Assembly (NCBI RefSeq): GCF_029962835.1
Contig: NC_080587.1
Location: 53,287,528 to 53,351,527 of the forward strand
Source: Magnolia sinica
Lineage: Eukaryota; Streptophyta; Magnoliopsida; Magnoliales; Magnoliaceae
Direction of reading: 5' to 3'
DNA: 64,000 nt
The notes below the pieces were generated by a model. That model saw only the letters and a program-made list of their open reading frames with translations. It had not been told where the DNA came from and searched no databases. Below are positions 15,851 to 63,948 of this stretch, one piece after another (the first letter of the stretch is position 1; every line of letters starts with the position of its first letter). The position numbers were made by a program, and so were the translations under genes.

Positions 15851-16667
15851 ATACAGACAGAACTTCACCACCACTTGTCTCTTCATCAGATGTGATAATA
15901 TTGGCCTCCTTAGAAGAAGCCGCTGAATTTTCTTTCTTTGCTTTAAAATTGGTACAATCCTTCTTCATGTGTCCAGACATCCCACAGTTCTAGCACTTTA
16001 GTTTTCCTTTGCCCTTACCCTTGGATTTGGATCTAAGTCTTGAAGATCTTGTATCTCACTCAGAATTCCTGCCCCTCATAATCAGTGCATCAGAAGATGT
16101 CCTTGTGTCGCTGTTAAGCTTTCTCATAGCCTTCCCTTGAAGGGCTGAAATAACAATGTCGACACTCATGGTTTTATTCGTGGAGCACATTGTGTCCTTG
16201 AATGACTCATATGGTGTCGGAAGAGAATTTAGCAACATACATGTTTGTTCCTCATCTTTCATTACTTCTTCCATATCCAACAATTTGCAAACCAATTTAT
16301 TAAAGTTGTTGATGTGGGCTTTCAGATCTCCACCCTCTACCATCTTAAATTTATACCACTGCCGCTTCAAGTGTTGGCGATTTTCTGAAGATTTTTTCGC
16401 GTAAATATCCTTTAACTTTACCGATAAACTAGCCGCAGTTTTCTCCCTCAAAAAATTATAGAGAACCTCATTCGCGAGACATAAGTAGATTTAGGATAAA
16501 GCTTTCTCATCAAGAGTATTTCATTCATCATTAGTCATACTAGACTTTCTCGCCTCAAGAGCACCATCCTCACCTTGCTTGGTTAAGAAACTGATCATCT
16601 TGATCTTCTATAACTCAAAATTATTTTTCCTTGTGTACGTCTCAATATCATACCTAGTACTTCCCAT
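15850..16667 (-). pseudogene. copia gag, broken
   Basis: The likely start ATG is at 16,665-16,667 (MGSTRYDIETY). An in-frame TAG replaces the expected Trp after NNFEL. The main block (16,451-16,056) has LSVKLKDIYAKKS, LKRQWYKFKMVEGGDLKAHI, LLNSLPTPYESFKD and later ALQGKAMRKLNSD, typical of UBN2-type plant copia Gag. A CCHC knuckle at about 15,995-15,950 reads C-stop-NCGMSGHMKKDC, again with TAG in place of Trp. Confidence 0.87.
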
Positions 16668-32900: not shown

Positions 32901-34456
32901 TTGATGGTTGAATGTCCACCTTAGACCTTGATTGGGCCCATTCTCACCCATTAGGCACATAGTATTACTTACTTAGGCTTTGTGGGTTACCCCAAATCGT
33001 TGGGCCCCCACTACTATTTATGCTTCCCCGGCCCCATATCTTGAGGAATTGCCTAATTACTTAGACCCAACCTTAGTAAGAGAAGAGTACAACTTCACCG
33101 CATGTTATGTTGTCTTTATGATTCATCCCCATGTGCACCATGTGCCTAGATGCGACTTTGTCATGAGGAGAGTACATTATTGTCGCATGTTATACTTAGA
33201 TACTTTCATAACTCATTCCCATGTGCATCATATGTGTGCTTGAGGAGTGATTGGTCATGGTATATGTCATTGGGCAGGTTGTTATGGGACTCCCTGAGTG
33301 ATGGAGTTGCCCCACATGAGCTCGCTGTATGCACATGGACTGATGTAGGGTTGATTGGTTGATTCGTGCATCCCGCATTTGCATGGCACAGTTATTATTC
33401 GCCCTAGCTTCATCAGGGCCGTAGTCTCCACAGGCACATCGTGGATGGCCAGATTTAGACACCAGAAATGTTTAGTTCTAGCACTGTGGGCATGTAGGAT
33501 GTCCATGGATGAAAGGCTCAGAACCTTTATGGTACCAGGAAATGCTCCAATGTCGAGACCGAGTGGAAAATATGAGCGCTAGTGCCGTTACCATTAGGCC
33601 ACGTTTCTCACTTTATCGTGGTTGGTTGGAAGGGGGTGTGGCCTTTTCCGCCCAAGTGAGGGGGCTATAAGTTAGGCTGAGTTTGACTAGCTCGCAAATG
33701 GTTCCGCTACCGGCGATCCTTGTAGGTGTTGGCTAACCACAGGCAGGTAGTGAGGTCTCTTCTACTCGCTGGGCTGCGCGACTAGGGAGACGACAGTCAG
33801 TGTGGAGTGTATTTGACCCCGGTGATTTTTCAGAGAGGAACTATACTGATACGTGGACATGATATGAAGATGAGCATGATTGCATTGCACATTGCATATG
33901 CCATTTAGCTATATAGGCCCCGCATTGCCTGGCCTTAGGATGACTGATGGCACTCCTGCATGGTATTACATAGCCTTGTTACGGCTGTTGGTATTCATGG
34001 TCTTACCAGCATTTTTCACATAATCTGATATTGCATACTTGGTACCTGTCCCACACACACTTACACCACCCTCTAAGCTTTCAATAAGCTTATGCATGAT
34101 TAATGCGTGTAGGTGATTCTAGGCCGTAGCAGGAGCAAGAGCGTGCTGCGGATCTTCTGGAGTTTTTTCTTTTATAGCCATTGTTTCTTTTCCTTTTGCG
34201 CCTTGTATTGTAAAAGTTTTTATTATTAGTAGATTTTGTGATGATGCTCCTATGGTTATTATCTGTGGTTTATGATCTTGGTTATGCTGATTATGGAGCA
34301 GACTTGTGATTTAGAAATCCTCCTTTGTAGGATCCCAGGATCGGAACCTGGTGAATGGGTGCCAAGAGCCGAGAATGGGGTACTACGGAGAACGTCGGTG
34401 TCGAATTCAGCGATCGAGAATTTTATGAGCCTGATTTTTGAGTTTGGGGCGTGACA
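29936..34456 (+). mobile_element. gypsy (Tekay/Del-type) solo LTR, 4.5 kb
   Basis: It begins TGTCATACCCTTAACC and ends GGGGCGTGACA. Its last 150 bp (gatcccaggatcggaacctg, gagaatggggtactacggag) are the reverse complement of the start of the Tekay LTR at 46,491. Its first 80 bp (gtcgaattccgacaacccgc) match the reverse complement of that LTR's end. Flanks are ttagt (29,931-29,935) and ttagc (34,457-34,461), a 5-bp duplication with one mismatch. No internal domain is present. It splits the SIRE-like element between RNase H and env-like sequence. Confidence 0.82.
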
Positions 34457-43706: not shown

Positions 43707-43716
43707 TCAATTTCAG
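43707..43716. repeat. target-site duplication of the MULE, left copy
   Basis: tcaatttcag here and ttaatttcag at 63,778-63,787 differ by one base in ten. 8-11 bp is the usual size for Mutator-like elements. Confidence 0.85.
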
Positions 43717-43873
43717 GAGAGTGGATTGGATACTGAACACTTCAGTAGCCTTTTGGCTACTGAAGTGATGTGGCAAATTGTGGTTGGTGGAATACCAATA
43801 AGTTGTTCTGTAATGAATGCTCCTGCACGTCACTTCCGTTAGCCTCCGTTTCCGCCGTGAACAGGTAAACCCC
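43717..43873 (+). repeat. left TIR of the MULE
   Basis: It pairs with 63,621-63,777. It contains cacttcagtagcc-tttt-ggctactgaagtg (43,737-43,766), a 13-bp stem with a four-T loop. The rest (gtggcaaattgtggttggtg, acttccgttagcctccgttt) matches its partner almost base for base. Confidence 0.9.
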
Positions 43874-44867
43874 ATTTTTAGTTTTTTTTTCTTCACTCTG
43901 TCTCAAATTTAAAAGGGTGAGAGCATCGCAGGACATATTCCAATGTGCCACTAACCAGGTAAGTTTCACTGTCAACATTCCATCAATTGGATCGAGGTTT
44001 TGTGCTAAGAATCTCTAAACGAGAAGATCCAACGGTACATATGCAATAATTTTTTTTAAAAAAAACATGGCCTTTATTTTGAGTTTACCAAAACGACTTT
44101 GATTATTATGAATTGTAAATGATTTTTGTATATTGTGAATGGTCAGGATATATCACAGTTATTCTATGTTAGCATGTGGGGTGCGATGGTAATTCTCCAT
44201 TCACACTAGTGGGTGTAATAGCTATTCTCAGAGTAGAAGTAGAGAGCGTCATGACCTGTGACCGCATCATCTTCACCCTTTAACTGCTCTAGCGACACTT
44301 CAAAGAAGAACCAACAAGCATGGTATTGTGTGTTTACCACACGTAATAGTCGCAGCAACTCATAGAACGCCAATCAAACTGATGTTTAATGGGACTTTTA
44401 TCTCTTGCTTTAACTAAGAATTATCAGCTCAAAAATTCAATATTAAATAAATTACAAACCCAGCAGCTACCACACACATGGCCATTTTGGAGGTCGGTCA
44501 ATTCACCGCATATGCCAAAACCTCCATGTAAAAGTAGCAACTACGGTGAAAACGCTCGGAGCCATTCTTATCCCATCGTTAGAATTGGAGAAGGGCCACG
44601 TACATAATGTAGTTCCGACCATCCAAGCCGCCCCAATCCATTCAATACGAATATCCTTGGCCACACAAACAAACCATTAATTGACTGGATTTAGTCATGT
44701 TTAGCTTGCAAACATCTGCCCCACCACAAACTCAAAAATTCTGCTTATCTATATGTATACTTCAAATATGCAATTACTCACATTAAAAGTGTCGATCTAC
44801 CATCGCCTCTTAGATAAATTGTAATCACGAACATGCACCCCAAACACCAATGGATTTGCAGCAGTTG

Positions 44868-45092
44868 CTATTGAAGTCTACGAAGAAAAGGGGATCTATC
44901 TTTTCTCTTGCTTGTCACGACTGAAGTCTTGTCACCAAGAAGTTGAGATGTAAGAAGTTGATCAGATGCAGTCAAGAAGTTCTGCATATCATTCTCTGCA
45001 ACAATGGTACCACAATCAACTGTTTGGATGGATAAAGTGATTAAGCCATTTAAATTAGCATCCAAACTGATAGGAATTTCACCCGGACCATC
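44868..45092 (-). pseudogene. unrecognised exon-like frame inside the MULE
   Basis: The minus frame runs from just after an acceptor-like ataaacag (about 45,095) to TAG at 44,868. It includes RKTDGPGEIPISLDANLNGL, ITLSIQTVDCGTIVAENDMQ, NFLTASDQLLTSQLLGDKTS and a basic end KRKDRSPFLRRLQ. It is protein-like, antisense to the transposase gene and near the left TIR, where MULEs often hold captured host fragments. A plus-strand frame of about 81 codons (45,004-45,249) overlaps it, and I cannot say which is real. Family not recognised. Confidence 0.35.
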
Positions 45093-45805
45093 TGTTTTCC
45101 GCCTGTTTATACAAAGTCAAGTCCTCAATTCCTCACTGCCACATTCTCCTTCCATGGGAATGTGCCATGATCCTTTCTCTGACTCTTGGATGACTGTGGA
45201 ATATGAGGGCGGCCATCTGAAGTTTCAAATCACCGTAAACCGAACTTGATGGCGCTCTTTCCACTTAAGAAAAAAGATGTTGCCTAAGAGTTCGAAAATG
45301 TGATATGTTATGGTAGTGTCTTAGGACTTTATGCTAAGCTTAGAATAAGTGGGCCATGGCTTTCATGATGTAAGCACAGCCTTGCATTTTATTGACCATG
45401 TCCCTCAATCTTCATCATTGGGGTTGTTGTTTATTGTCCTATCCGTTTTTTAGCATCTTCTGTGTAAAAAATAAAAAATAAAAAAATAAACCCACACTAG
45501 TCCTTGGGCCAAGTTTAGGGGCTAAATCCTAGATGTACGACCTATTGCCGGCCTTAGCACATTGATCAACATGCCTGTCACTTCACTTCATGGTCAAGAC
45601 ATTTTTTTCCTTTATTTCTTTATCCAAAAACCTACACAACAATGATATCTTGCATTTGCATTAGCCTTGTAACTATGAATATTCATCTCTTGAAATTTAA
45701 CCAACTGAAGGTTCGATAAATCTAAAAAAATATGATTTCCATTTCTTTGGGTTAGCATTTGAATGATTCTGACTTTACTCTATTTTGTGATTTTTACTTT
45801 TGTAG

Positions 45806-46490
45806 GTAGTGAAATGGATGATAACGCTTTTGAAAGTCAATCATTTTTTCAACCATGTCAGAGGTTGAAATTTGATGTTGAAATATATAATCAAGAAGCA
45901 AGCAAACAAATAGAGGATCAAGAAGCAAGCCAACAAATAGAGGATCAAGAAGAAAACAAGATGTACTAGTCAATGCATATGAAAAGTTTGATGAACAACC
46001 AAAAGTCAGAATGGAGTTCACTTCTGATGAGAGTGCATATAAGTATTACAATAGTTATGCTGAGAAGATAGGATTCAGTGTTCAAAAAGATTGGATAAGC
46101 AAATCAGATGGGGTCATACTTCAAAGAAGATTTTGTTGTTCTAAAGAAGGTCGAAAATATGAAAAGAAACAAATCAATCAACCGAAGTTTAATCGTCCAA
46201 TTACAAGAACTGAATGTCAAGCAAGCATGAGTTTGAAGCTTCAAGAAAATGGAAAATATTGTGTAACCGGCCTTGTGGCGGAGCATAACCATGAGGTTGT
46301 TTCACCATCAAAGGTATATATATTAAGATCACAAAGAGGCTTGACTAATGTTCAAAAAGCTGAAGTGGATATGGCAAATGATTCAGGAATAACACCTAAA
46401 GCAACCGTAGATTATCTAAGTAAGCAATATGGTGGTCGAAAAAATCTGGGTTTCCTACCCATTGATTATAAAAATTACTTACGAAAGAAG
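45806..46490 (+). pseudogene. FAR1-type MULE transposase, 5' part (DNA-binding domain)
   Basis: An acceptor-like tttacttttgtag lies just before 45,806 and the first ATG is at 45,814 (MDDNAFESQSF). A short imperfect repeat gives QEASKQIEDQEASQQIEDQE. A frameshift near 45,960 hands over to the frame LVNAYEKFDEQP, MEFTSDESAYKYYNSYAEKI, GFSVQKDW. The FAR1 zinc module follows: FCCSKEGRKYEKK, RTECQASMSLKLQENGKYCV, then AEHNHEVVSP, with Cys, Cys and the HNH ligands all kept. It continues NVQKAEVDM, TVDYLSKQYGGRKNLGFLPI, DYKNYLRKK, where the gypsy element is inserted. Translation resumes in phase at 59,486. Confidence 0.88.
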
Positions 46491-49400
46491 TGTCACGCCC
46501 CAAACTCAGAAAACGGGCTCACAAAATTTTCGATCGCCGAATCCAGCGCCGACAGCCTCCGTAGTACCCCATTCTCGGATTCCGACACTTACATGCCAGA
46601 TTCCGATCCTGGGATCCTACAAGGAGGATTTTCAGTATGAATTTTTTTTTGTAATGGAGCATAACCACAAGCATAACCAAGTCACAAAACAACATCACCA
46701 CATATCCACTATATCAAAAACTTTTAAGTACAATGGGGAAAGGGAAATACAAGGTGATAAAAAACTTCAAAATGATCAGATGCGCGCTCCTGCCTCAACG
46801 CTACTGCTGTTCAACGGCACCTGCACGCAACGGTCGTGCATAAGCTTACAAAAGCTTAAAGGGTGGTGTAAGTGTGTGCGCAAGGTAAGTGCCAAGTGTG
46901 CAATATCAGAGTAATGAAAAAAATATGCAGTAAGTCTATGAATGCTATCAGTTGTACCAAAATTATGTAATGCAAGACATGAATGCTATCGACCATACTA
47001 AGGCCATGCGATGCGAGGCCTATGTAGCCAAATGTCATATGCGAGATGCAAAGCAAGCGTGCCAGTACTCATCAAGTACACATATCAGTACAGTTCCTCT
47101 GGATATCACCGGGGTCTAATACACCTCACACTGACTGTCTCCTCCCTAGCTGCACAGTCAAGTAAGTGGAAGAGACCACACTATCCGCTTGACCAGTAGT
47201 CTGCCAATACCTACCCGGCTCGTCGATAGCGGACTCATTTGCGAGCTGGTCAAACTCAGCCTAGCTTATAGCCCCCTCACTTGGACGGATAAAGCCACAC
47301 CCCCTTCCAACCGACCACGACACAGTGGGAGACGCGGCCTACTGGTATTCAGCACTCAGGCGCTCATGTATCCACTCGGTCTAGACGTTGGAGCATCTCC
47401 TGGTACCAAAAGCTTTTGGGATTTTCACCCAAGGACATCCTAAGTGCCCACCATACTAAAGCCAATATTTTCAGTATTCAATACGACCATCCACGATGTG
47501 CCTATGAAGGCCATGACCCTGATGTCGCTAGGGCGTGTAGTGAATCACGACACACAATGCGAAATGCATGAGTCACATCGTCAGTCATGCAGCAATCTCG
47601 CGCATACCACGCGCTCATGTGGGGTACTCCATCTCATAAGGAGTCCCGTAAATGTCTCAGCCCAACGGCTTGTGCAATGATCAAACATTCCTCATATCAA
47701 GCATACATATGATGCGTATGGGCATGAATCACGGAGATATACTAAACATGTTACAAAGTGATGAACCCTCAACAAGTATGGGCCCACCAATGGGCCCTAA
47801 GGAGAGTTATAATGCAGACATTTAACCAACATTATTCTTACAACGTGGACGTCAAACCAACATTGCTCCTAAGGCATGGCCAACCATAAAATATCATTAC
47901 CTAAACCATAGGGAATCACACATTGTAATGGACCTATATACTTCTTATTGGGCCTCGACCCATATGCCTTAGATACATCAAATGGGCCACCTCATATGGG
48001 CCTTATATAAATCAAGTGGCCGCATCAGTGTGCACATTGCAATGGGCCATAACCCATGGGCCTTGAATACAGCACAATGGGCCTTATAACATGGGCCTTA
48101 TATTCATATCAAGGTGGGCCTCAACAACGGTCACAAATACATTGAATGGGCCTAATCACATGGGCCTTATGTACATCAGATGGGCCACACCAATTGGGCC
48201 CCATGTCTATACTCAAGTGGGCCCCAACAATGGGCCATAATACAGCGAGATGGGCCTAATCCTATGGCCTTATTTTATACCAAAGTGGGGTCCACTTGGA
48301 CTATAGATCTGTCTTATTTTTAGTCTCAAGCCTTTAAAAAGAGCTTTCAAAATGGTTGGATAGTTGCATGTGACACAAGCATCATGGTGAGGGGTCCACA
48401 TGAAGGCCCACCATCATATATATATTATGTATAATATAATATATAATTTATATAAAGTATATATGTACAATATTATATATAATATAATTATGTATATATA
48501 TATATATATATGGATATATATATATATATATACACATACAAATACACATGCACACACGCGCACACACACACCGTCCCGATAGAAAACGTAAGGGGGGGTT
48601 TCACCGTCCACCGTCAGTGGACGGTGAGAATGAAACATGTACATCACTGTGGGTCCCATGAGGGGCCCACCACCATGTCTATATGCCATCTAATCCGTTA
48701 ATAAGGACACACGTACCTGGCTGAAAGGGAAAAACAAATTTCATCTTGATCCAAAACTTCTGTGGACCCAAAAATGGGTTTCAATGGCAAACAGTTCAAC
48801 CCCACTGTTTCCTCTGATGTGGGCCACCTGAGTCTTGGATGTAGCTGAAATTTGGAGGGGGCCCACTGATGGAGGTGGCCCACCATATGAATGGGTTGGA
48901 TGGCAAATATACATCAGGGTGGGGCCCACAGATGGAGCGGTGGGTCCCTGCCTACACGGTAGCCCGCCTCCACGCGGTAAGCGATGCCTGCGCCTCTGGC
49001 AGCAGCAGTGTCTGCTGCCTATTTACTATTTTTTTTTAGAAAAATCGATTTTTCTGAGGTTTTTCACGTGTGGGGCTGGCATCAAGCGAATCCACCCCAC
49101 CCACTGGTTCTCATAGCTCAAGACAAGCCAAACAAGCCCAATATCAGATATTTTTCGGTGTAAAGAAACGACAGGGTGGTTTTTCAACGATAGAAATCAC
49201 TTTTTTATGCAGTATAGCCTGCTAGAAGATCGGATGGACTTCATTTTTCGGCTCAACGTCTAAAACGAGCTGAGGAAAGAAATGGACGGTGTGGATTGAA
49301 TAAATACATCAAGGTGGGGCTGCATGAGCAGTACACCCCAAATCCCCTTTTTGTCTGGACGTTAGTACACCCACTGTCAACTCACACTTCACACTTCACT

Positions 49401-50687
49401 GTGTATCCCGTCCAGTGTCCAGGGACGCTGGACGGCCGCATCTAACCCATTTAAGGTGGGCCCCACCCACAGAAGTGCTACTAGGGTGGGCCACCAAATG
49501 TTTGGATGGGGTACATGAGACCCACATCAAGGTGAGGTCCCTTTGATGAACGGTTTGGACAACTCACAACTCCTTGAGTGGGCCACACAATCATACCCTC
49601 ACACACAAAACAAATGAAAAAGATAGGGAGAGAGAGAGACACACGTGCATGGAGGGCTCTGTCACTATGAGCCCTCCCTTCCATACATCCAATCATACAT
49701 CAAGTGGGTCCCATTACATGTGAGCCCACCAAATCAAAAAAAATCAATGGTAGAGATTACTTCTCCACTAAAATGAAAGGTCTAGATGACCTCTATCCTT
49801 GCAAATAAAATAAACATCATGATGGGGTCCATGGAGAATGGCCTCACCATGGAATGATCATAAGGATTAAGGTGGGCCATCGGCCACACCTAGGGTCCAA
49901 AATGAGATCCATACCATCAATCGGTAGGCCTCACTTAGCCCATCATCAAAATATGAAAAATCTAGCCTAATGAGCACCCACCGTCGATCTTCTTGGTCCG
50001 TTAGAAAGCCGATCTCCTTGTGCTTCACTTTGATGGAGGGAGATGAGAAGTGGATGGCTTGGATGAAGGATTTTTAGGATGGGAAGTGGGACGCCAAATC
50101 ACATTTTTCTCTCCATGGGAAGGCTTGGACGTGGAATTTTCCTTGCTTGGGAATGTGGGTTTGAGAAATGAGAGAGAGAAAGAGAGTTGTAAAGAGAGAG
50201 AGAGTAGCTTAAGTAGGCCGTGATTACTTGTAAGGGATGGTGACTAGTAATAAATGTTTGTAAGAAGGCTAGGGGGTAGGGTGGCTATAGCTAGGGTACG
50301 GTGGCTATAGCTAAGGTAGGGTGGCTATAGCTAGGGTACGGTGGCTATAACTAAGATAGGGTGGCTATAGCTAGGGTGATGTCATCCATCACCCTCATGA
50401 TTACCTAGAGATTGGTGCCACATGGGATGGGTGGGTCCCGCAATATGCGGTCCACGGCCATTATAATACATGGTCCACATCTTATGATATAAGCGTTGGG
50501 TTGGCGCACGAGACGCGGCCACGGTGCGGTCGCAATGGTACATGGCTCGGATTAAGCTGACTCAAATCTATAGGATATGGCTTAGGATCGCGCGCAAACG
50601 TCGATTATAGGTCGCAGGTTGCCGGAATTCGACGGGAAGGATTGCGGCAGTCGACGGAATAGTACGGACTAGGATACGGGTCTTACA
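46491..50687 (-). repeat. 3' LTR of the Tekay element (4,197 bp)
   Basis: It begins TGTCACGCCCC and ends GGGTCTTACA. It is collinear with 55,565-59,480 with a few mismatches per 60-base line, except 49,305-50,196, which is replaced there by a different 579-bp segment. It contains TA/CA microsatellites at 48,418-48,570, MITE-like sequence at about 48,575-49,400 and a 20-bp tandem repeat at 50,277-50,376. Confidence 0.92.
50277..50376. repeat. 20-bp tandem repeat inside the LTR (5 units)
   Basis: Units gggtggctatagctagggta and variants (aaggta, acggtggctata). The partner array is in the other LTR at about 59,058-59,155 and has the same number of units in a different variant order. Confidence 0.9.
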
Positions 50688-50809
50688 GCTCTCCTCACCT
50701 AATAAAAATTTTATCCTCAAAATTTGCACTACCATTGTAGCTAACCGTAACTCATAAGGAAATAGAAAACATAACATCATATATAATCAAAACACAGTAC
50801 AACATATAA

Positions 50810-52200
50810 TCAAATATCGAAAAGATGGGGATAGCGCTCGCGAATCTCCGCCTCGCGTTCCCAAGACGCCTCATCCACACTATGATGGCCCCACTGCACC
50901 TTTATCAAGGGCACCTTGGTCCGCAGGACCTGCTCCTTTCGATCGAGGATATGAACTGGCTGTTCAACGTAAGAAGCGTCCTCACGAACCTCCAACGGCT
51001 GCCAATCAATAACAGGCACGATGTCTGACCCACACTTCCTCAACATAGAGACGTGAAAAATGTTGTGGATGCCAGACAACTGAGATGGTAAGGCAAGCTG
51101 ATAGGCCACAGCGCTAACGCGCTCGGTGATCTCGAAAGGTCCTATAAATCTCCGGGCAAGCTTGCCCTTCACTCCAAAACGAACCACACCCTTCATGGGT
51201 GAGACCTTGAGATACACATGGTCCCCAACGGTAAATTCTAAGGGACGACGCTGACACTCAACAAAACTCTTTTGCCGGCTCTGAGCTGTGCGCATCCTTT
51301 GCCTGATGATGTCAATAGTCTCTGACGTCTGCAGCACAAGCTCGGGACCTAGGAGACTCCGCTCTCCAACTTCGGCCCAACAACTCAGAGATCTACAAGG
51401 TCTATCGTATAATGCCTCAAAAGGAGTCATGCCAATGGTCGCCTGATAACTGTTGTTGTACACGAACTCAGCCAATCGCAGGTGCTCGTCCCAACCACCC
51501 GAGAAATCAATCGCGCAAGCCCGAAGCATATCCTCAAGGATCTGGTTGACCCTCTCGGTCTAGCCATCGATCTGCGGATGATATGCAGTGCTAAGCTGCA
51601 AATCGGTGCCCATCGCTCTCTAGAAGCTCCTCCAAAACTGAGACGTGAACCTCGGGTCTCGGTTTGAAATGATCGAGACAGGAACGCTGTGTAGTCTCAC
51701 GATCTCATCAACAAACATCTTGTCGAGCCGGTCTGTATGCCAAGTCTCACGAATCGTAAGAAAATGTGCCGACTATGTCAGACGGTCCACAACAACCCAA
51801 ATGGCGTCATGATCACGCTGTGTCCTCGACAAACTCATGATAAAATTGGTAGATATGTGCTCCCACTTCCACATCGGGACACTCAACGGCTGCAATAGAC
51901 TAGGGAGTCTTTGATGATTGGCCTTAACACGCTGGTACGTGTCACACTCGGCCACAAAACTGACATCTGGCGCTTCATCCCCGACCAAAAATACTAATGC
52001 CTCATATCGTGATACATCTTCGTCGAGCCAGGGTGGATAGAAAATCGCGATCGATGTGCCTCAGTCATAAGATCTCGGCGTAACTCAGGAATATTTGGAA
52101 CACATAATCGGCCTCTGAAGTGAAGTCCACCATCAGAACCAATCTATCAATCTGTCTGATTCTCAGATGCTGCCTCTGCTTGGTAATCTTGTAACGACTT
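50810..52200 (-). pseudogene. Tekay integrase and chromodomain-like end, broken
   Basis: The integrase core lies at about 51,988-51,530: PMWKWEHISTNFIMSLSRTQ, DHDAIWVVVDRLT (first Asp), then in a shared frame with stops VSIISNRDPRFTSQFWRSF (second Asp) and TERVNQILEDMLRA (Glu). The Gln codon before TERV is TAG at 51,560-51,562. The last 239 codons (51,529-50,810) are open: RLAEFVYNNSYQATIGMTPF, EALYDRPCRS, GDHVYLKVSPMKGVVRFG, GPFEITERVSAVAYQLALP, then LRTKVPLIKVQWGHHSVDEA and SWEREAEIRERYPHLFDI, the chromodomain-like tail used in chromatin targeting. An H2C2-like part lies just upstream in broken frames. Confidence 0.9.
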
Positions 52201-52263
52201 GTCTGTCTGCTGAGCCTCGATCACCCTTACGACAAGAGAGAGTTGAATCGACAGACTCGATAA

Positions 52264-53048
52264 CTAAACGATAGAAGACTGCAGACCAAACTCGAAGTCG
52301 TACTCTGTTATATCCTCGAGCATCCTCCACTCCTGAATCATCATGTGTGCCACCAGGCCTCGTGGCTGACGGCTGAGGACATCTGCCACCACGTTCGCCT
52401 TGCTTAGGTGGTACTGAAGATCAAAATCATAGTCTTTCAAGAGCTCCATCCAACGCCTCTGCCTCATGTTCAGCTCGGACTGAGAGAACAGATACTTCAA
52501 GCTCTTGTGGTCGGAGAAGAGCTCGAACCTCACCCCATAAAGATAGTGCCTTCACACCTTTAGTGCAAAGACCACTGCCGCCAGTTCAAATCATGCGTGG
52601 GGTAGTTCAGCTCATGGACCTTGAGCTGACGAGACGCATAAGCCACCGGCTTCCCGTGCTGCATCAGGACAACACCCAAGTCGACTCGTGAGGCATCGGT
52701 AAATACAATAAATCCATCATTCCCAGAAGGAAGAGTGAGGACAGGAGCGGACGTGAGGCAGTCCTTTAGCTCCATAAATGCCCACTCACAATCGCCGCTC
52801 CACACGAACTCGGCACCCTTTTGGGTCAACCTGGTCAACGGGGCTGCAATACGAGAGAATCCCTCAATAAAACATCAGTAGTAGCCCGCTAAACCAAGAA
52901 AACTGCGGATCTCAGACGCGTTCGTGGGCTGGCCCCACTGACGCACGGCATCAATCTTCGAGGGGTCCACGGCGACACCCTGCCTCATCACCACAAGACC
53001 GAAGAACTTCAACTCCTCCTGCCAGAACTCGCACTTCTCCAGCTTCGC
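52264..53048 (-). pseudogene. Tekay RT thumb and RNase H, broken
   Basis: After the RT stop the frame continues AKLEKCEFWQEELKFFG, AVDPSKIDAVRQW, SEIRSFLGLAGYY, then [20 protein letters not shown] and [20 protein letters not shown] with [20 protein letters not shown] (RNase H with the first Asp in FTDAS). A frame break near 52,555 leads to [40 protein letters not shown] and [13 protein letters not shown]. The YHxxKANxVADxLSR end is standard for gypsy RNase H. Confidence 0.88.
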
Positions 53049-54130
53049 CTAAAGCTGGTGTGCACGGAGGGTCTGCAATGTAATCTTTAGATGCCGCTCA
53101 TGCTCCTCATGGGTCCTTAAATAGATCAGAATGTCGTCGATGAACACTACAAAAAACTGGTCGAGATACGGACGGAAGACCTCGTTCATCAACTGTATGA
53201 ACACTGCAGGCGCATTGGTCAGTCCAAAAGACATAACCTGGAACTCAAAATAACCGTAGCGAGTCCTGAAGGCTATCTTCGGGATATCTTCATCTCGAAC
53301 CCGAACCTGATGATAACCGGACCGCAAGTCTATCTTCAAAAAGAACTTCGCCTCTTGCAGCTGATCAAACAAATCATCGATCCTCGGAAGCGAGTACTTG
53401 TTCTTGATTGTGACCTTGTTAAGCTCGCGGTAATCTACGCAAAGCCTTAACAAGTCATCTTTCTTCTTCATGAAGAGTACCGGCGCTCTCCATGGCGAAC
53501 TACTCAGATGGATAAAGCCCAACTCGCGCAACTCGTCCAACTGCTTCTGCAGTTCCTGTAACTCTAACGGTGCCATACGATACGGGGCCTTCGAAATAAG
53601 CGCGGTACTGGGCATGAGATCAATCTGGAACTCAGTGTGCCGACGCGGTGGTAACCCTTGAATCTCCTGGAACACATCGGGAAAACCACAAACGACCGGC
53701 AGTTGGTCGATACACAAAGCAACTGACTCCTCAATGGTGCACGATAACAGGCAAGAGAGTTGTTCTCCTCTGGGCTTGACAACAAACTGGAACTCTGGCA
53801 TGCCGGGTATACAGAACGTGACTGTCCTTGCGGAGCAGTCTAATATGGCATGGTACTCGGAGAGCCAATCCATGCCCAAGACAACATCAAACTCGGACAT
53901 CGGTAATACGAATAGGTCGACAGGCAAGAAGATATCCCCAATCAAAACGGGGCAAGATGCATAAAATTGGTATAATACTGCAGTCTTCCCTAAGGGCGTC
54001 GATACTGACAAACCCTCGCGAGCAGACTCCATCGACAAACTGGTCGATCGACAGAAATCAGCGGCCACAAAGGAATGCGATGCACCAAAGTCAAACAATA
54101 CATGTGCAATGCATGCAGAAATAGGGAGAG
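53049..54130 (-). pseudogene. Tekay protease and reverse transcriptase
   Basis: The longest intact piece of the element (349 codons open). The protease active-site region reads [15 protein letters not shown]. The usual Ser/Thr after the catalytic Asp is Phe, which would probably disable it. RT follows: [98 protein letters not shown], then [19 protein letters not shown] with the FIDD catalytic pair. The frame stops at 53,049 just before the RT thumb. Confidence 0.92.
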
Positions 54131-54169
54131 TACCCTCGACAACCCCTCTTGATGACTGAGGGTCCTGTT

Positions 54170-55381
54170 GTGCGGCATAAAATCTTCCCCTGCTGGGGAG
54201 GTGCAGGTCCCCTCTAAGATCTCTGCTGATGCTGTTGCCGCTGTGGCGGCCTGATCTACTGCCTCTGCTATTGTGGGGGAGGCCCTGGAGGCTGGTGCTG
54301 TGGTTGCTGTTGCTGCTGTGGTGGCTGTGGTGGGGGCTGATGTGATGCCCTCAGCTACTGCCGCTGTGGATGGGGACACTCGTGCACGCGATGTCCTGTC
54401 CTACAGCACCCAAAGCAAGTACCTGCGAACGGTCCCGGAGGTGGTGCTGGGGGTACTGCTGGTGCTCGAAATGCTGGATGGGTCATGCGTCGCTGCTGTG
54501 AACGATGCTGCTGCTGCTGGAAACTACCAGAGGGCGCCTTCCTTTTCTGATCTCCTCTCTGGTCACAGGCTCTCTGCAAACTGGCCCAATCTGACTCATA
54601 AATCTATGCCCTCTCCATGATCTGCTCAAATGTCGGAAGCAGGTGTCCGATCACACAACTCCTGAGGGGAGGACGTAAACCGTTCTCAAAACGGCGGGCC
54701 TTTCGCCCCTCATCATCAATAAGATACGTCGTGAAGCTCAATAGTGCGACGAAATGTGCCTCATACTGGGACACAGTTATGTCTCCCTGGACTAAAGTCT
54801 CAAACTCTAATGCGCTGCTGTTGCACATGCTCAGAAAAGAACTTTCGGTCAAACCAGTTCACAAAGTCCTCCCAGGTCCACTCAAAATCGGCCGCTACCA
54901 ATCGGGTTACAGATGCCCAACAATGCTGAGCCTCATCCTGGAGAAGGAATACAGCCAATGGGAATCGCTGCTGGGTCGTACATCTCATGGTGTCAAATAT
55001 CTTCTCCACCTCGGAGCATCATATCTCTGCTGCAGTAGGGTCAGGCTCGCCCCGAAAATGCGGAGGATCGTGCTGTCGGAAGTCCTTGAGAAGGGCACTT
55101 GCACGCTCCTGCTCGGCCTCAGCTGGTGTAACAGTGGGACGCCTACTCTGCCCCTGAAGAATAACGGTCATCACCTGAAGCATCTGCTACACCTGGGTGG
55201 CACTCACGGGTACGGTCGGATCCGCACCGGTCTCAGGTAAGGGAGTGGCATCCTCGGGATAGAAAGCAGCGATATCCAGTGGCAGAGCGGGAGTCGCAGG
55301 TGGTAAAGCGAGAGTAGTGGGTGGTGGAGCGGGAGTCGCAGGTGGTGGAGCGGGATTCACTCAGGTCGATCTTCTAGCCAT
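54170..55381 (-). pseudogene. Tekay gag with zinc knuckle, broken
   Basis: ATG at 55,379-55,381 starts MARRST, then TGA (likely from Arg CGA), then a Pro/Ala-rich stretch with repeated VNPAPPPATPAPPPTT-like text. The capsid part includes HCWASVTRLVAADFEWTWED, FVNWFDRKFFSEHVQQQRIR (55,009-54,800), then in another frame FETLVQGDITVSQYEAHFVA, LLSFTTYLIDDEGRKARRFE, NGLRPPLRSCV. A Gln-rich linker precedes the knuckle CFGCCRTGHRVHEC (about 54,400), a CCHC box. A low-complexity Ala/Thr-rich region runs on to the protease. At least two frameshifts. Confidence 0.87.
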
Positions 55382-55544
55382 TATGTACTATAAGAAGAAA
55401 CAAGGGCCTATCAACCTTGAGAATTCTCGAAGGCATAAACGTTAAGGGTCTATGTTAAAAAAATTGCTAAGTTATTCAGACTCAGAACCTTTTCACACAA
55501 AGTTCATAGAAGATATGTGATGTGATCCTTAGGTATTCCCAAGG

Positions 55545-55564
55545 TAAGCTCTGATACTAATTTC
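55545..55564 (-). promoter_or_regulatory. primer binding site of the Tekay element
   Basis: On the minus strand, five bases after the LTR end: tagtatcagagcttacc. It matches the initiator-Met tRNA primer site tggtatcagagc with one mismatch. Confidence 0.8.
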
Positions 55565-58500
55565 TGTCACGCCCCAAACTCGAAAAACGGGCTGACAAAA
55601 TTTCCGATCGCCGAATCCAGCGCCGACAGCCTCCGTAGTACCCCATTCTCGGATTCCGACACTTACACGCCAGATTCCGATCCTGGGATCCTACAAAGAG
55701 GATTTTCAGTATGAATTTTTTTTTGTAATGGAGCATAACCAAGTCACAAAACAACATCACCACATATCCACTACATCAAAAACTTTTAAGTACAATGGGG
55801 AAAGGGAAATACAAGGTGATAAAAAACTCCAAAATAATCAGATGGCGCTCCTACCTCAACGCTGCTGCTGTCCGACGGCACCTGCACGCAACGGTCGTGC
55901 ATAAGCTTACAAAAGCTTAGAGGGTGGTGTAAGTGTGTGCGCAAGGCAAGCGCTAAGTGTGCAATATCAGAGTAATGAAAAAAATATGCGGTAAGTCCAT
56001 GAATGCTATCAGCTGTACCAAAACTATGTAATGCAAGGCATGAATGTTATCGACCATACTAAGGCCATGCGATGCGAGGCCTATGTAGCCAAATGTCATA
56101 TGCGAGATGCAAAGTAAGCGTGTCAGTACTCATCAAGTATACATATCAGTACAGTTCCTCTCTGGATATCACCGGGGTCTAATACACCTCACACTGACTG
56201 CCTCCTCCCTAGATGCACAGTCAAGCAAGTGGAAGAGACCACACTATCCACTTGACCAGTAGTCTGCCAATACCTACCCGGCTCGTCGATAGCGGACTCA
56301 TTTGCGAGCTGGTCAAACTCAACCTAGCTTATAGCCCCCTCACTCGGGTGGATGAGGCCACACCCCCTTCCAACCGACCACGACACAGTGGGAGACGAGG
56401 CATACTGGTATTCGGCACTCGGGCGCTCGTGTATCCACTCGGTCTAGACGTTGGAGCATCTTCTGGTACCAAAAGGTTCAGGAATTTTCACCCAAGGACA
56501 TCCTAAGTGCCCACAATGCTAAAGCCAATATTTTCGATATCCGATACGACTATCCACGATGTGCCTGTGAAGGCCATGGCCCTGATGTCGCTAGGGCGTG
56601 CAGTGAATCACGACACACAATACGAAATGCATGAGTCACATCGTCAGTCATACAGCAATCTCGCGCGTACCACGCGCTCATGTGGGGCACTCCATCTCAT
56701 AAGGAGTCCCGTAAATGTCTCAGCCCAACGGCTTGTGCAATGATCAAATATTCCTCATATCAAGCATACATATGATGCGTATGGGTATGAATCATGGAGA
56801 TATACTAAGCATGTTACAAAGTGATGAACCATCAACAAGTATGGGCCCACCAATGGGCCCTAGGGAGAGTTATAATGCGGACATTTAACCAACATTATTC
56901 TTACAACGTGGACGTCAAACCAACATTGCTCCCAAGGCATGACCCACCATAAAATATCATTACCTAAACCATAGGGAATCACACATTGCAATGGACCTAT
57001 ATACTTCTTATTGGGCCTCGACCCATATGCCTTAGATACATCAAATGGGCCGCCTCATATGGGCCTTATATAAATCAAGTGGGCCGCATCAGTGTGCACA
57101 TTGCAATGGGCCATAACCTATGGGCCTTGAATACAGCACAATGGGCCTTATAACATGGGCCTTATATTCATATCAAGGTGGGCCTCAACAACGGTCACAA
57201 ATACATTGAATGGGCCTAATCACATAGGCCTTATGTACATCAGATGGGCCACACCAATTGGGCCCCATGTCTATACTCAAGTGGGCCCCAACAACAGGCC
57301 ATAATACATCGAGATGGGCCTAATCCTATGGCCTTATATTTATACCAAAGTGGGGTCCACTTGGACTATAGATCTGTCTTATTTTTAGTCTCAAGCCTTT
57401 AAAAAGAGCTTTCAAAATGGTTGGATAGTTGCATGCGACACAAGCATCATAGTGAGGGGTCCACATGAAGGCCCACCATCATATATATATTATGTATAAT
57501 ATAATATATAATTTATATAAAGTATATATGTACAATATTATATATAATATAATTATGTATATATATGGATATATATATATATATATATACATACATACAC
57601 ACACGCACACATACATGCACACACGCGCACGCGCGCACACACACACACACACCGTCCCTGGACGGTGTGGATAGAACACGTAAGGGGGGGTTTCACCGTC
57701 CACCGTCAGTGGACGGTGAGAATGAAACATGTACATCACTGTGGGTCCCACGTGGGGCCCACCACCATGTCTATATGCCATCTAATCCGTTAATAAGGTC
57801 ACACATACCTGGCTGAAAGGGAAAAATAAATTTCATCTTGATCCAAAACTTCTGTGGACCCAAAAATGGGTTTCAATGGCAAACAATTCAACCCCACTGT
57901 TTCCTCTGATGTGGGCCACCTGAGTCTTGGATGTAGCTGAAATTTGGAGGGGGCCCACTGATGGAGGTGGTCCACCATATGAACGGGTTGGATGGCAAAT
58001 ATACATCAGGGTGGGGCCCACAGATGGAGTCGTGGGTCCCTGCCTACACGGCCACTGCCTCCACGCGGCAGGCGCTGCCTGCGCCTCTGGCAGCAGCAGC
58101 GTCTGCTGCCTATTTACTATTTTTTTTAAGAAAAATTGATTTTTTCGAGGTTTTTCACGTGTGGGGCCGGCATCAGGCGAATCCACCCCACCCACTGGTT
58201 CCTATAACTCAAGACAAGCCAAACAAGCCCAATATCGGATATTTTTCGGTGTAAAGAAATGACAGGGTGGTTTTTCAACGGTAGAAACCACTGTTTTATG
58301 CACTATGGCCCGCTAGAAGATCGGATGGACTTCATTTTTCGGCTCAACGTCTAAAATGAGCTGAGGAAAGAAACGGACGGTGTGGATTGAATAAAACCTT
58401 CAAATTCATGTAGTGGCCCACTCCATCCATCAACTTTAATGGTGGGCCCATCTTGATGAACATGTTAAATGCCATCCACACACCATGGTGGGCCCCATCC

Positions 58501-58951
58501 ACATCATAACAACTTATTCAACGAGGACTTGCCATGAACTTCACTGGCCTCCTACAACGGTAAGCAAATTAATCAACAACTCCAAGTGGGCCCAATTCAT
58601 TCCCCACCAAAAAAATAAAAAGGGGGAGAACCCCACCAAATGGAGGGTCAATGACCCTCTTTTCCATAAAATAAACATCAAGTGGGGTCCCATTAAATTG
58701 GGCCCCACCAAATAAAATCAAGGTGGGATTACCTACCAAATGGAATCCTAATGGACCTCCTTCCCTCAAAAAAATAAAAATCTAGGGTCCTAAATGGCCC
58801 CACCTGGAATTTCTTGGTTGGTTGGGCCATTCCGGCCACATAGGGGTAAAATGGATCCTTATAAGGTTTGGTAATGGGCCCACCAAAATAAAAATTTTCT
58901 TCCCTAAGGCCCACCGTGGGATTTTCCTTGGCCTTGGGAAAAGGATTTGGA

Positions 58952-58983
<32 letters not shown>

Positions 58984-59480
58984 TAGCTTAGGTAGGCCAT
59001 GATTACTTGTAAGGGATGGTGACTAGTAATAAATGTTTGTAAGAAGGCTAGGGGGTAGGGTGACTATAGCTAGGGTAGGGTGGCTATAACTAAGGTAAGG
59101 TGGCTATAGGTAGGGTACGGTGGCTATAGCTAAGGTAGGGTGGCTATAGTTAGGCAGATGTCATCCATCACCCTCATGATTACCTAGAGATTGGTGCCAC
59201 ATGGGATGGGTGGGTCCCGCAATATGCGGTCCATGGCCATTATAATGCACGGTCCACATCTTATGATCTAAGCGTTGGGTTGGCACACGAGACGTGGCGT
59301 TGGAACCGCGACAACGGTGCGGTCGCAATGGTACATGGCTTGGATTAAGCTAACTCAAATATACAGGATATGGCTTAGGATCGCGCGTAAACATCGATTC
59401 TAGGTCGCAGGTTGCCGAAATTCGACGGGAAGGATTACAGCAATCGACGGAACAGTACGGACTATGATATGAGTCTTATA
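55565..59480 (-). repeat. 5' LTR of the Tekay element (3,916 bp)
   Basis: It begins TGTCACGCCCC and ends GAGTCTTATA (terminal CA changed to TA). It is collinear with the other LTR except 58,396-58,974. It carries the matching TA/CA microsatellites (57,480-57,650), a (GA)n run at 58,957-58,983 and five 20-bp units at 59,058-59,155. Confidence 0.92.
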
Positions 59481-59485
59481 AGAAG

Positions 59486-61236
59486 CGAATGAAAATAATG
59501 GAAAAGGATGATGCAGGAGCTGTTCTAGAATACTTTCAAAAAATGCAAGTAGAGGATCCATCTTTCTTTTACACAATTCAAGTAGATGAAGATGATCAGA
59601 TTACGAATATGTTCTGGCCAGATGCAAAGTCAATAATGGACTATGGCATTTTTGGAGATGTGGTTTGCTTTGATACCACATATAGAGTAAATAGTTATGG
59701 GCGGCCATTTGCCCTATTTATTGGGGTAAATCATCATAAGCAAACTATAATATTTTGTACAGCCTTACTATACGATGAAACGATTGAATCTTTCAAATAG
59801 TTGTTTCAATTATTTTTAAGTGCGATGTCTGGAAAACAATCAATAACAATTCTAACAGATCAAGATGCTGCAATGGCTAATGCGATAGCTTCAGTAATGC
59901 TAGAATCATATCATCGTTTGTGTATATGACATATTTACTAAAATGCTGCCAAGCCCATAACCATTTATTTAAAGGTTCAAAAGGTTTTGAAATTGATTTC
60001 AGTATGTGTGTATATGATTGTGAGAGGGAGGAAGATTTTATGACTGCATGGAATGTTATGCTTGAGAAGTATGATTTAGTGCAAAACAAGTGGCTACATG
60101 ATTTGTTTAAAGTAAGAGAAAAATGGGCTTTGGTTTATAGACGAAATACATTTTATGCTGATATGAAGAGCACTCAACGAAGTGAGAGCATGAATAGTTT
60201 ATTAAAAAAAATATTTAAAATCTAAACACAATCTCTTGCGTTTCTTTACTCAATACAAATGGGTGGTGGCTGATCGACGATACCAGGAATCCATGGCTGA
60301 TTTTAGAATGAGGCAAAGTACCCCTGTAATGTTTGTTGATGCAAATATGTTAAAGGAAGCAGCAAAAGTGTACACTCCAGAAGTATTTGAGATATTTCAA
60401 AATGAGTATAAGAAAATTCTTAATGCTGCAGTTTATAAATGTGATGAGTTTAAAACAGTTACGGAGTTCCAAGTTATTTATAACAACAAAAATGAAGGAT
60501 GGACTATTAGATTTGATTCATTAGACAGTTCAGTGACATGTAGTTGTAAGAAGTTTGAGTTCGTGGGAATCTTATGTAGTCATGCATTGAAAGTTTTAGA
60601 TTATTATAATATAGAGGTGCTTCATCCCTATGTTTTGAAGATATGGCAAAGAGATGCAAAGGTAGGTGTTGCTAGAGATCATAATGGTTCAAGAATACAA
60701 GTCGAGTCCAATATTACTTTAGGCAAGCAGTACCAATATTTATCTCGCAAGTTTCTTAAAATTGCAGCAATGGTTGGGAAACATGACGAGGTTTTCAAAG
60801 TGACTGATAGATATACAGATAAATTTCATGATGTAGTGATAGAATGTATGAAAGGGATAAGGAACCTCCACTAAGGTTGTCTCAATTTATTGATGAAAGT
60901 GTAGATACTAAATGTGCATACCTTTAACCGACTGAATCTCTACATAATAAGCATGCATGCCATGAGCCGATGGAAAAAGAGATTACTTTTGTTGATAGTC
61001 TGAGTTCACAAACCGTAAGTGGAATTAAAGTAAAGCCTAGAGTTGGGGGCAACTCTCGTGTGTATAAAAATCTGCTAGATAAATTAAAGAAAAAAAGACC
61101 CCGACATGAATCTATGCAACTACAAGAAAATCGAGAGAGACGAGAAATGACTCAAACATCAAACATCATGCACAATTTTTCGTTCCGACCTTCACATTAT
61201 ACATTTACAATCCCCCAATTGCATTATTTCAATCAG
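59486..61236 (+). pseudogene. FAR1-type MULE transposase, catalytic core and SWIM domain
   Basis: It resumes the frame lost at 46,490: [60 protein letters not shown] (first catalytic Asp), [21 protein letters not shown] Trp codon is TAG at 59,798-59,800. Then ITILTDQDAAMANAIASVML (second Asp), another Trp lost to TGA after RLCI, a frameshift, NHLFKGSKGFEIDFSMCVYD and ADMKSTQRSESMNSLL (Glu). A one-base slip in an A-run at about 60,205 leads to RFFTQYKWVVADRRYQESMA. SWIM finger: CSCKKFEFVGILCSHALKVL (CxC...CxH intact). A frameshift at about 60,873 and a TAA follow, then a basic tail up to a donor at 61,236/61,237. Confidence 0.9.
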
Positions 61237-61324
61237 GTATTATAGAAAAAATATTTACTAAAGCTTGTTATATCATATGTTATTGTTGTTTAAATTTCTT
61301 ATTCTTTTTTTTTCCCTTTATTAG

Positions 61325-61477
61325 GGATCACATGTTTCGGTGGCGAGTCCTTTTGAATTACCAAGTGGATCCCATGCAGGACACGGTCATAATACGGTGG
61401 TAGGCTACACTTAATGTGGGTACCAACCACCTCGTGTTAGCATGTTTCAACATAACCCTTTAACAATTGGAAATCAG
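61325..61477 (+). pseudogene. FAR1-type gene, downstream exon
   Basis: Bounded by ttattag/G at 61,324 and aaatcag/gt at 61,477. It reads GSHVSVASPFELPSGSHAGH and GHNTVVGYT, a TAA in frame, then CGYQPPRVSMFQHNPLTIGN. Preceded by a pyrimidine-rich tract (ttctttttttttccc). No domain recognised. The composition (Gly, Pro, Asn, Gln, Ser) suits the low-complexity tail of FRS proteins. Confidence 0.6.
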
Positions 61478-61578
61478 GTAAACATGAGTTTTAATGTAGT
61501 TGACTTGCTATATTACATTTAGCATTCGTATCACTTATGCTTATTGGAACTTCCATTATTATGTTTTTACTTTACTAG

Positions 61579-61758
61579 AGTTCGAATGTTACCGAATTCA
61601 AAATACCTGAGAGTGGCCCTAGTGGATTCATGAATGTTCCTTTGGTTACTTCTGGCTACCAACCAAACATCAACTTATACCAACAAATTCACTTAAGCAA
61701 CCTGCAATTATTACATTTATGTCAAGACTCATCTCAAGGAAACATCGTGGTTAGTAAG
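61579..61758 (+). pseudogene. FAR1-type gene, downstream exon
   Basis: Acceptor tttactag before 61,579, donor agtaag/gtaaaa at 61,758. Frame SSNVTEFKIPESGPSGFMNV, PLVTSGYQPNINLYQQIHLS, NLQLLHLCQDSSQGNIVVSK is open throughout. Shared phrases (GYQP) with the preceding exon support a common reading. A further acceptor ttatgcag/GACAATGAC at 61,858 may start a last exon ending within a few codons. Confidence 0.6.
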
Positions 61759-61858
61759 GTAAAATTGAAATTTTCTAACTCCCATAATATTGAATAAAGT
61801 TTATCAATTTAGATATTGCAAAATATCTTATTCATTTAAGTGTGAATTTGTTATGCAG

Positions 61859-63620
61859 GACAATGACATTCATTCATGAGCAATATATAAGGAACTTCCG
61901 TTGCCCCAGTTTTTTTATTGGCGCCCATCGAAACCGTTGGATGGATGACTCTTTTTGTGCAGTTTTTTTTTTTTGGATATATATGATAGGTGTGGCTCTT
62001 TTTTTTTTTTACCTAAATAATTGGATTGATGGTTCATTTTGGGTAATTTCTTCAATTATATTATTTGGTGGGTCCACATGCTAAAATGGCATGAAAAAAC
62101 AAGTATCCATAAGCCCATGTGGCAGTTACTTGCATGTAGATTTCTCTCTAGTCATTAGGCAAGTGGAGAGATTGTCCACTCTGGTGCTTTGAAAAATGTG
62201 AACAATCAAATCAGCCATCCAGACAGTATTAAAATCACTTTTGCATGGGCTATCATGAAAAATACACTACTAGAAGACTCTATAGAAGATGTGATCTTAG
62301 AACACTGAATCGCTTCTCTAGAGCTCTCAGAATGCGGTGAAACTTCAATTTCTCATTTTTCATTAGGTCACTTATTTGCTACACAAACTGTGGATGCATA
62401 TGTACAAGATGTGGGGCATTGAATAAGTTGGATGGACGGTGAGTGTTCCTTTGTCCAAAAAGGTTTGGCAGCTTAACTAAGTGGACCACCCATTCAAGTT
62501 GACAAACACTGCACACCCAGTCAAAAGATAGACAATTTCACAATACGCGCTTTATATAATATTCAGCTCAAGGAATACCCAACTCCGACACATGAAACAA
62601 ACAACTGAATTTGAGCATATCAATGTTAAAATATGGCCTATGGCCAATGTCTAGCTAATCAGTTCTTAGCAATAAATTCAACCTAGCAGCAATATGTTAA
62701 TAGTCATTGGTAGCAATAAAAGTTGACTACACAATTAAGTTTTTTCTTATATAGGCCTTGCCTATGCCTTGTTATATGTTAGGTATCATGGTCCTAAAAA
62801 AAATATACACATTCTTGATTATTCCGGCCAGTAAAACTAGAGTCATCCTAGTCTCATTTACTTGATGAGAATAGCTTGAATAGGATAATTTCACTTGCAA
62901 CAGACCATTGGTGTGAATTCAATCCGCTCCCTTGTAGAATAAGCTTATTCTACAAACGTTGCAGAGAAAGCTTAAAAATTAATTAAAAAACTTTGATAAA
63001 CTAGCGGAGTACGATGATCCATACTCCTACATGTAGAAATTGTTATCACAAGCCACATAAGTAGCTCATCAAAATCCGTCTAATTAGTGGGTCCCACAAT
63101 AGATGGGCCATAACCCAAATCAGATACTAAATAAAGGATTCTAACTAGATCATTGGTGTGAATTTAAAAGATAGTTGAAAAACAAAAGCAATCAATTTTT
63201 TCATGTGTAAAATGGGTCCACAATCTGGGGTTTAATTTCAAAAACAGGTATGGCACGAGCACCATGTCTCACTGTTTATCAGAAAAAAACAACCATCGCC
63301 TGGGTCATCCGGTCACTCTCCTTGGGTAAATGTGGGGCCGACACTTTTTCTCTAGACCATTGATCAAAAGTTACGGATCTTCCAATCATGAAGATTTTCA
63401 AACCAGAGACCATCAGTTATGTATCTACTTAGATCAACAGTCCAAATCGCCGATCACGAGGCCATATCAAAGTAACATATTTCATCCGTCTGTAGATTGG
63501 AGCATATCTCAGCCGTGAAAGGCGACACGATTTAGGTGGGCCCCACATCTAAGAAAGCAAACCAAATTGAGTCAGGATACAAGTTTGAAAATGTCAGCCA
63601 AAATTCTCTCTGGCCGTTAA
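61859..63620. other. MULE 3' interior, non-coding
   Basis: Apart from a possible short terminal exon at 61,859-61,880 I see no coding frame. The stretch contains poly-T tracts (61,961-61,972; 62,000-62,011), a CACTA-like terminus cactactagaaga (about 62,267-62,280) and scattered MITE words. A plus-strand frame at 63,330-63,518 is not protein-like. Confidence 0.5.
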
Positions 63621-63777
63621 AATTAAACACATCACCTGTCCACGGCGGAAACGGAGGCTAACGGAAGTGACGTGGAGGAGCATTCATTACGGGAACAGCC
63701 TATTGGTATTCCACCAACCACAATTTGCCACATCACTTCAGTAGCGCTACTGAAGTGTTCAGTAGCCAATCCGCTCC
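63621..63777 (-). repeat. right TIR of the MULE
   Basis: Inverted copy of 43,717-43,873. It contains a perfect 24-bp palindrome, cacttcagtagc plus gctactgaagtg, at 63,734-63,757, where the left TIR has a TTTT-centred stem. It ends ccaatccgctcc, followed by the duplication ttaatttcag (63,778-63,787). Confidence 0.9.
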
Positions 63778-63948
63778 TTAATTTCAGATAGTAAGCCCAC
63801 ACAAAAAAGGAAAAACTGCGTGAACTCATCACCTACGGTCGCCTAAACAATAACTGATCATACCGGCTTATCTTTCCTACCAACATGCCACTTGTGGAGG
63901 ACAACCTAGCCGTTCAAAACTTTGGTCCCACCATGAAGATAGCCCATC

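Follow-up and report, generated by a model that had tools for sequence, protein, structure and literature searches.

FAR1 genes are described as forming very large families in plants (PMC8599713), and a gene of this type lying between inverted ends raises the question of whether it belongs to the host or to a mobile element. Such a locus is present on C15 of Magnolia sinica, within a 64,000-bp stretch (contig NC_080587.1, positions 53,287,528-53,351,527 of the forward strand; hereafter the window, numbered from its first letter). A preliminary description had reported a FAR1/FHY3-type gene boxed in Mutator terminal inverted repeats (TIRs) with a 10-bp target duplication. This observation is confirmed, and the interpretation given with it is, as a whole, partly supported. 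The locus represents very probably a formerly autonomous cut-and-paste Mutator-like element (MULE) of the FAR1-SWIM, Jittery-like type, which was later broken by a Ty3-type retrotransposon. It spans positions 43717-63777 (20,061 bp in total) and measures 7,066 bp after removal of the nested insert and one AGAAG, in agreement with the about 7.07 kb given earlier. Its ends are as follows.

43707..43716 (9-bp reading 43707-43715), unstranded: left target-site duplication, compared with 63778-63787
43717..43866, + strand: left TIR, aligned with the right TIR
63634..63777, - strand: right TIR, by alignment with the left TIR and a random-pair score test
63778..63787 (9-bp reading 63778-63786), unstranded: right target-site duplication, compared with the left copy

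MULEs typically have TIRs that are often longer than 100 bp, a target duplication of 8-11 bp and a transposase domain with a D-D-E core. Alignment of the left TIR with the reverse complement of the right TIR gave 90.6% identity over 149 columns. The local score of this pair was 229, compared to a maximum of 68 among 1975 random window pairs of the same size, and the identity is thus not at random level. The inverted ends proposed earlier are therefore real, but their likeness fades about 150 bp inward, so that the length of about 157 bp given for them was too high. The flanking tcaatttcag and ttaatttcag are identical at nine of ten positions (chance of 9/10 or better between random 10-mers: 23/200,000). 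An alternative 9-bp reading of the duplication (8/9 identical) places GGAG at the start of both TIRs and agrees with the sister copies. The left TIR holds a 12-bp inverted repeat, CACTTCAGTAGC/GCTACTGAAGTG, at 43738-43749 and 43756-43767 with a 6-bp spacer, whose counterpart in the right TIR is a perfect 24-bp palindrome (63734-63757). Within the window these arms are confined to the TIRs. The motif CACGCGC, given as a FAR1-binding site in PMC8599713, was not found in the TIRs and is present elsewhere in the window.

The gene between these ends lies on the + strand. Its best protein relative is P0001, an M. sinica protein of 631 aa with an open frame, annotated as "FAR1-RELATED SEQUENCE 5-like" and about 90% identical. 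The main parts of the gene are:

45814..46490, + strand: transposase gene part 1, with start codon and FAR1 domain (tblastn of P0001; FAR1 match)
59486..61236, + strand: main exon of the transposase gene after the insert, with core, SWIM finger and basic stretch (domain matches, tblastn)

Residues 1-46 and 48-226 of P0001 matched part 1 at 89-90%. Domain matches on the + strand comprise FAR1 (PF03101, E=8.3e-26), MULE (PF10551, E=1.8e-10) and SWIM (PF04434, E=8.6e-8), in line with the FAR1 zinc module, D-D-E core and SWIM finger described before; on P0001 itself PF10551 reached E=6.4e-32. D289 and D351 are kept, and E460 is near-invariant in 44 proteins and lies outside the >90% conserved columns of the larger protein set; we take these three residues to be the D-D-E triad. 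The single gene thus carries FAR1 at its N-terminus and SWIM at its C-terminus, the arrangement listed for the Jittery group. A PDB sequence search with P0001 yielded no match at E≤0.01. Positions 45004-45249 inside the element were considered as a separate protein and rejected, as no Pfam family was matched. The window copy of the transposase gene is dead: the frame changes near 45952 in part 1 and near 59945, 60217 and 60865 in the main exon, which also contains stops at 59798, 59927, 59939 and 60925.

Sister copies with the same ends occur on several chromosomes. The proteins P0001 and P0002 match the genome searched at 100%. Genome matches listed number at least 42 for the left TIR, at least 41 for the right TIR and at least 72 for the P0001 protein; these counts are lower bounds, the window locus itself being missing from the rows listed for P0001. 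At the P0001 locus, on another chromosome, the TIRs are about 84% like the left TIR of the window and 85% like each other, and a perfect 9-bp duplication, TTCCTCTCA, is found on both sides. A sister on C11 matches at 97%, has both ends and is flanked on each side by GGTTGGGCC (8/8 by script, the ninth base taken from the printed letters). Among the matches listed, 10 of the 19 P0001 rows with at least 79% protein identity (one of them the second fragment of a 73% row) have a correctly oriented TIR match no more than 10 kb away, and none of 17 chosen rows with 66-76% identity has one. Both ends were read for 13 TIR pairs including the window, with a threshold of 8/9 or better for a duplication. 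Nine pairs have one (window, C12:4.93M, C11:8.07M, C17:66.84M, C17:27.43M, C18:56.47M, C12:81.56M, C16:7.77M, C13:29.95M), and 9 bp is the length that fits the copies best. The search for further copies with these TIRs, proposed in the preliminary description, thus revealed sisters that have this gene and these TIRs as well as 9-bp duplications, and not FAR1 relatives consistently lacking the TIRs with the TIRs placed around unrelated sequence. These sisters support reading the locus as a mobile element rather than a gene of the host; the ancestor-like rank given to its lineage in the preliminary description is conjectural. Annotation as a FRS (FAR1-RELATED SEQUENCE) host gene, which had been anticipated, is indeed seen for at least one sister, P0001.

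Some copies are much shorter. Two of about 0.8 kb on different chromosomes, C18:56468944-56469728 (L039) and C1:127257010-127257804 (L044), have the two ends of the element fused at the identical point (window 44175/63463) with matching junction letters. This common junction indicates that one deletion derivative was multiplied, and the derivative probably behaves as a non-autonomous element moved by an enzyme supplied in trans. The copy at C13:29946456-29947608 (L051; about 1.15 kb) is of a different type; it retains a piece like window 62997-63285 and has a 9/9 duplication. Another short TIR pair of about 1.26 kb lies at C8:85159517-85160772.

For phylogenetic analysis, 47 proteins were picked from 209; reference sequences of FHY3, FAR1 and Jittery were not included, and P0121 (see below), which has no core, was for that reason omitted. 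A single clade (100/100) unites the window with ten M. sinica proteins and adjoins six eudicot proteins that are FRS5-like or unnamed (fork 95/95). Two other M. sinica proteins, P0065 and P0104, fall elsewhere together with a Cinnamomum protein. The end branch of the window sequence is longer than that of P0001 (0.083 vs 0.017), as expected of a decayed copy.

The insertion that separates the two gene parts has the following limits.

46486..46490, unstranded: AGAAG, left copy of the retrotransposon target duplication (flank letters)
46491..59480, - strand: nested Ty3-type long terminal repeat (LTR) retrotransposon (LTR comparison, protein domains)
59481..59485, unstranded: AGAAG, right copy of the retrotransposon target duplication (flank letters)

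The insert of 12,990 bp splits the gene downstream of the FAR1 domain; the codons on either side of it adjoin each other in P0001. Its LTRs lie at 46491-50687 (4,197 bp) and 55565-59480 (3,916 bp), and on its - strand protease, reverse transcriptase and RNase H are encoded together with an integrase-end domain that shows a weak match to a chromodomain. Divergence is similar for the LTRs (K=0.106, 3868 aligned sites) and the TIRs (K=0.101, 150 sites); the order of events is thus given by the nesting and not by divergence. A related LTR at window 33192-34456, in opposite orientation, has about 73% likeness to the initial 1.27 kb of the nested LTR.

Downstream of the main exon, three further exons were recognized.

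61325..61477, + strand: 3′ exon 2 of the tail (GT-AG), with one stop at 61412
61579..61758, + strand: 3′ exon 3 of the tail (GT-AG, in phase, likeness to P0121/P0122)
61859..61879, + strand: 3′ exon 4 (GT-AG, in phase), final stop TGA at 61877

All three introns are GT-AG and the flanking exons are in phase. The first junction (61236/61325) is exactly matched by the M. sinica proteins P0121 and P0122, the second and third have approximate support, and exon 4 showed no homology of its own. The spliced 3′ exons described previously are hence borne out, and the tail they encode is rich in Gly, Asn, Pro and Gln as stated, but in Ser as well. Of the 324 candidates in a tail search, two matched, both from M. 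sinica, and the tail is common to five M. sinica proteins, P0121-P0125; in the non-Magnolia proteins compared, weak likeness is limited to its first part, including the basic stretch. In P0121 (582 aa) the FAR1 domain is joined directly to the post-SWIM region and the tail, the transposase core being missing; this protein is either a deletion copy or a gene-model artefact.

Several observations weigh against a formerly autonomous MULE. No TIR match is listed for 9 of the 19 P0001 rows with at least 79% identity, and four of the 13 TIR pairs lack a duplication (C18:55.68M, C3:111.35M, C13:25.17M, C1:127.26M), among them two with a TIR match without one outer end (C13:25.17M, C1:127.26M). For the 6.5-7.1 kb TIR pairs at C17:27.43M and C16:7.77M no gene is found among the matches listed. 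The gene model of P0001 does not include the tail, and transposition itself was not observed. The rows without a listed TIR would suit a host gene for an FRS transcription factor that has decayed and happens to be enclosed by the TIRs of another element, as would the name FAR1-RELATED SEQUENCE 5-like, borne by all of the closest named proteins. Both the P0001 locus and the C11 locus contradict this explanation: there the same gene lies within the same TIRs and has its own duplications. Moreover, the window clade is multi-copy in M. sinica, whereas P0065 and P0104 group with the Cinnamomum protein. From a host FRS gene one would expect an intact frame under selection, usually a single copy, and neither TIRs nor duplications; the window gene contains four frame changes and five stops in addition to the insert, has TIRs and a duplication and belongs to a multi-copy group. 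A host gene in this position is therefore scarcely credible.

Slightly less remote, and still very improbable, is a Pack-MULE, in which a FAR1-type host gene was captured by a non-autonomous element and moved by another transposase. MULEs do carry fragments of host genes (PMC6446971), and the TIR pairs without a listed gene would agree with this. Here, however, the cargo is itself a transposase that has kept its core and zinc residues and recurs in full-length copies, and the same element gave rise, by deletion, to both copies of 0.8 kb. For the favoured autonomous MULE, known families suggest that binding of the TIRs would fall to the FAR1 zinc module, and cutting and joining of the ends to the RNase H-like D-D-E core, insertion presumably duplicating 9 bp. 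The Ty3-type retrotransposon later inserted downstream of the FAR1 domain, and the gene decayed. Short copies could be moved by enzyme supplied in trans.

A sister subfamily with about 71-72% protein identity has TIRs of different sequence. Its copy on C12 (L013, C12:50.39M) has terminal repeats of 155 bp (99%), the copy at C15:24.14M (L054) has repeats of about 180 bp (86%), and both elements have these ends in common, together with 6.7 kb at 95%. Neither terminal repeat showed significant likeness to the window TIR; the 155-bp repeat was accordingly rejected as a TIR of the window type and assigned to the sister subfamily. A copy on C19 has only 3.7 kb in common with the C12 and C15 copies, and neither TIR nor duplication was found for it. 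From the 3.7-kb comparison of C12 and C19 the subfamily had appeared to be without TIRs, which was overturned by the TIRs of the C15 copy, also present on the C12 copy. On C12 two copies of this subfamily lie tail to tail, forming a 13.7-kb inverted repeat at 94%. By eye, the C15:24.14M element has on its flanks (L054 and L056) a direct repeat about 37 bp long, far longer than a MULE target duplication.

Tentatively, and with more doubt than confidence, we suggest that the M. sinica FAR1-type MULE clade moved recently and may still move, its open-frame copies being annotated as FRS5-like. Two TIR sequences with no relation to each other enclose transposases that are about 72% identical, so that new pairings of enzyme and ends may have arisen within one plant lineage. 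If this were true, a single genome would allow a test of how a mobile FAR1 transposase turns into a transcription factor. Elsewhere in the window, a Copia-type reverse transcriptase and gag pieces lie at 13501-16451 (- strand), and 2527-3839 holds direct repeats that have diverged to 66-73% likeness, with overlapping registers.

The analysis links an annotated protein, P0001, to an element that has TIRs and a perfect duplication, a warning that such loci should not be counted as host transcription factors, and for a magnoliid genome it delimits a collection of copies, some with open frames, some decayed and some short derivatives. A literature search on Magnolia FAR1 genes and Mutator transposable elements gave no match, and neither did one on autonomous Mutator elements with TIRs, a FAR1 domain and SWIM. 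TIR-bearing FAR1-type MULEs had nevertheless been described as a group before (PMC6446971, PMC5826256, PMC2528002), and by omitting this the preliminary description overstated its case. As listed for the Jittery group (group 36, Table 1 of PMC6446971; TIRs of 39-292 bp), the window element has FAR1 first and SWIM last in one gene, TIRs and a flowering-plant host. It differs in its new TIR sequence, in the spliced 3′-exon tail, which is Magnolia-only within the 324-candidate search, and in duplications of 9 bp compared to 8 bp or no indication in that table. The MULE insertion in a maize ys3 allele, as described in PMC5826256, has 130-bp TIRs and 8-bp direct repeats and matches Far1-related sequence 5 loci. 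By description it is alike in the FRS5-annotated locus, the long TIRs, the short direct repeats and the confusion of transposase and host gene, but it is a fresh insertion whereas the window copy is dead. In grapevine, multi-copy Jittery-like families, similar to the window element, exist beside single-copy FAR1/FHY3-type (Jithouse) genes without TIRs or duplications (PMC2528002); the host is another one, and the part of that paper available to us describes no nested retrotransposon. Nested insertions are reported for 36% of maize and 41% of rice coding-MULEs, all clades counted (PMC3903597). These elements, whose clade IV includes Jittery and FAR1, resemble the window element in a transposase gene split by a nested LTR retrotransposon, in hosts different from Magnolia. 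Knowledge of the FAR1-SWIM MULE type is thus unchanged, and what is new here is a well-delimited Magnolia element of a kind already known.

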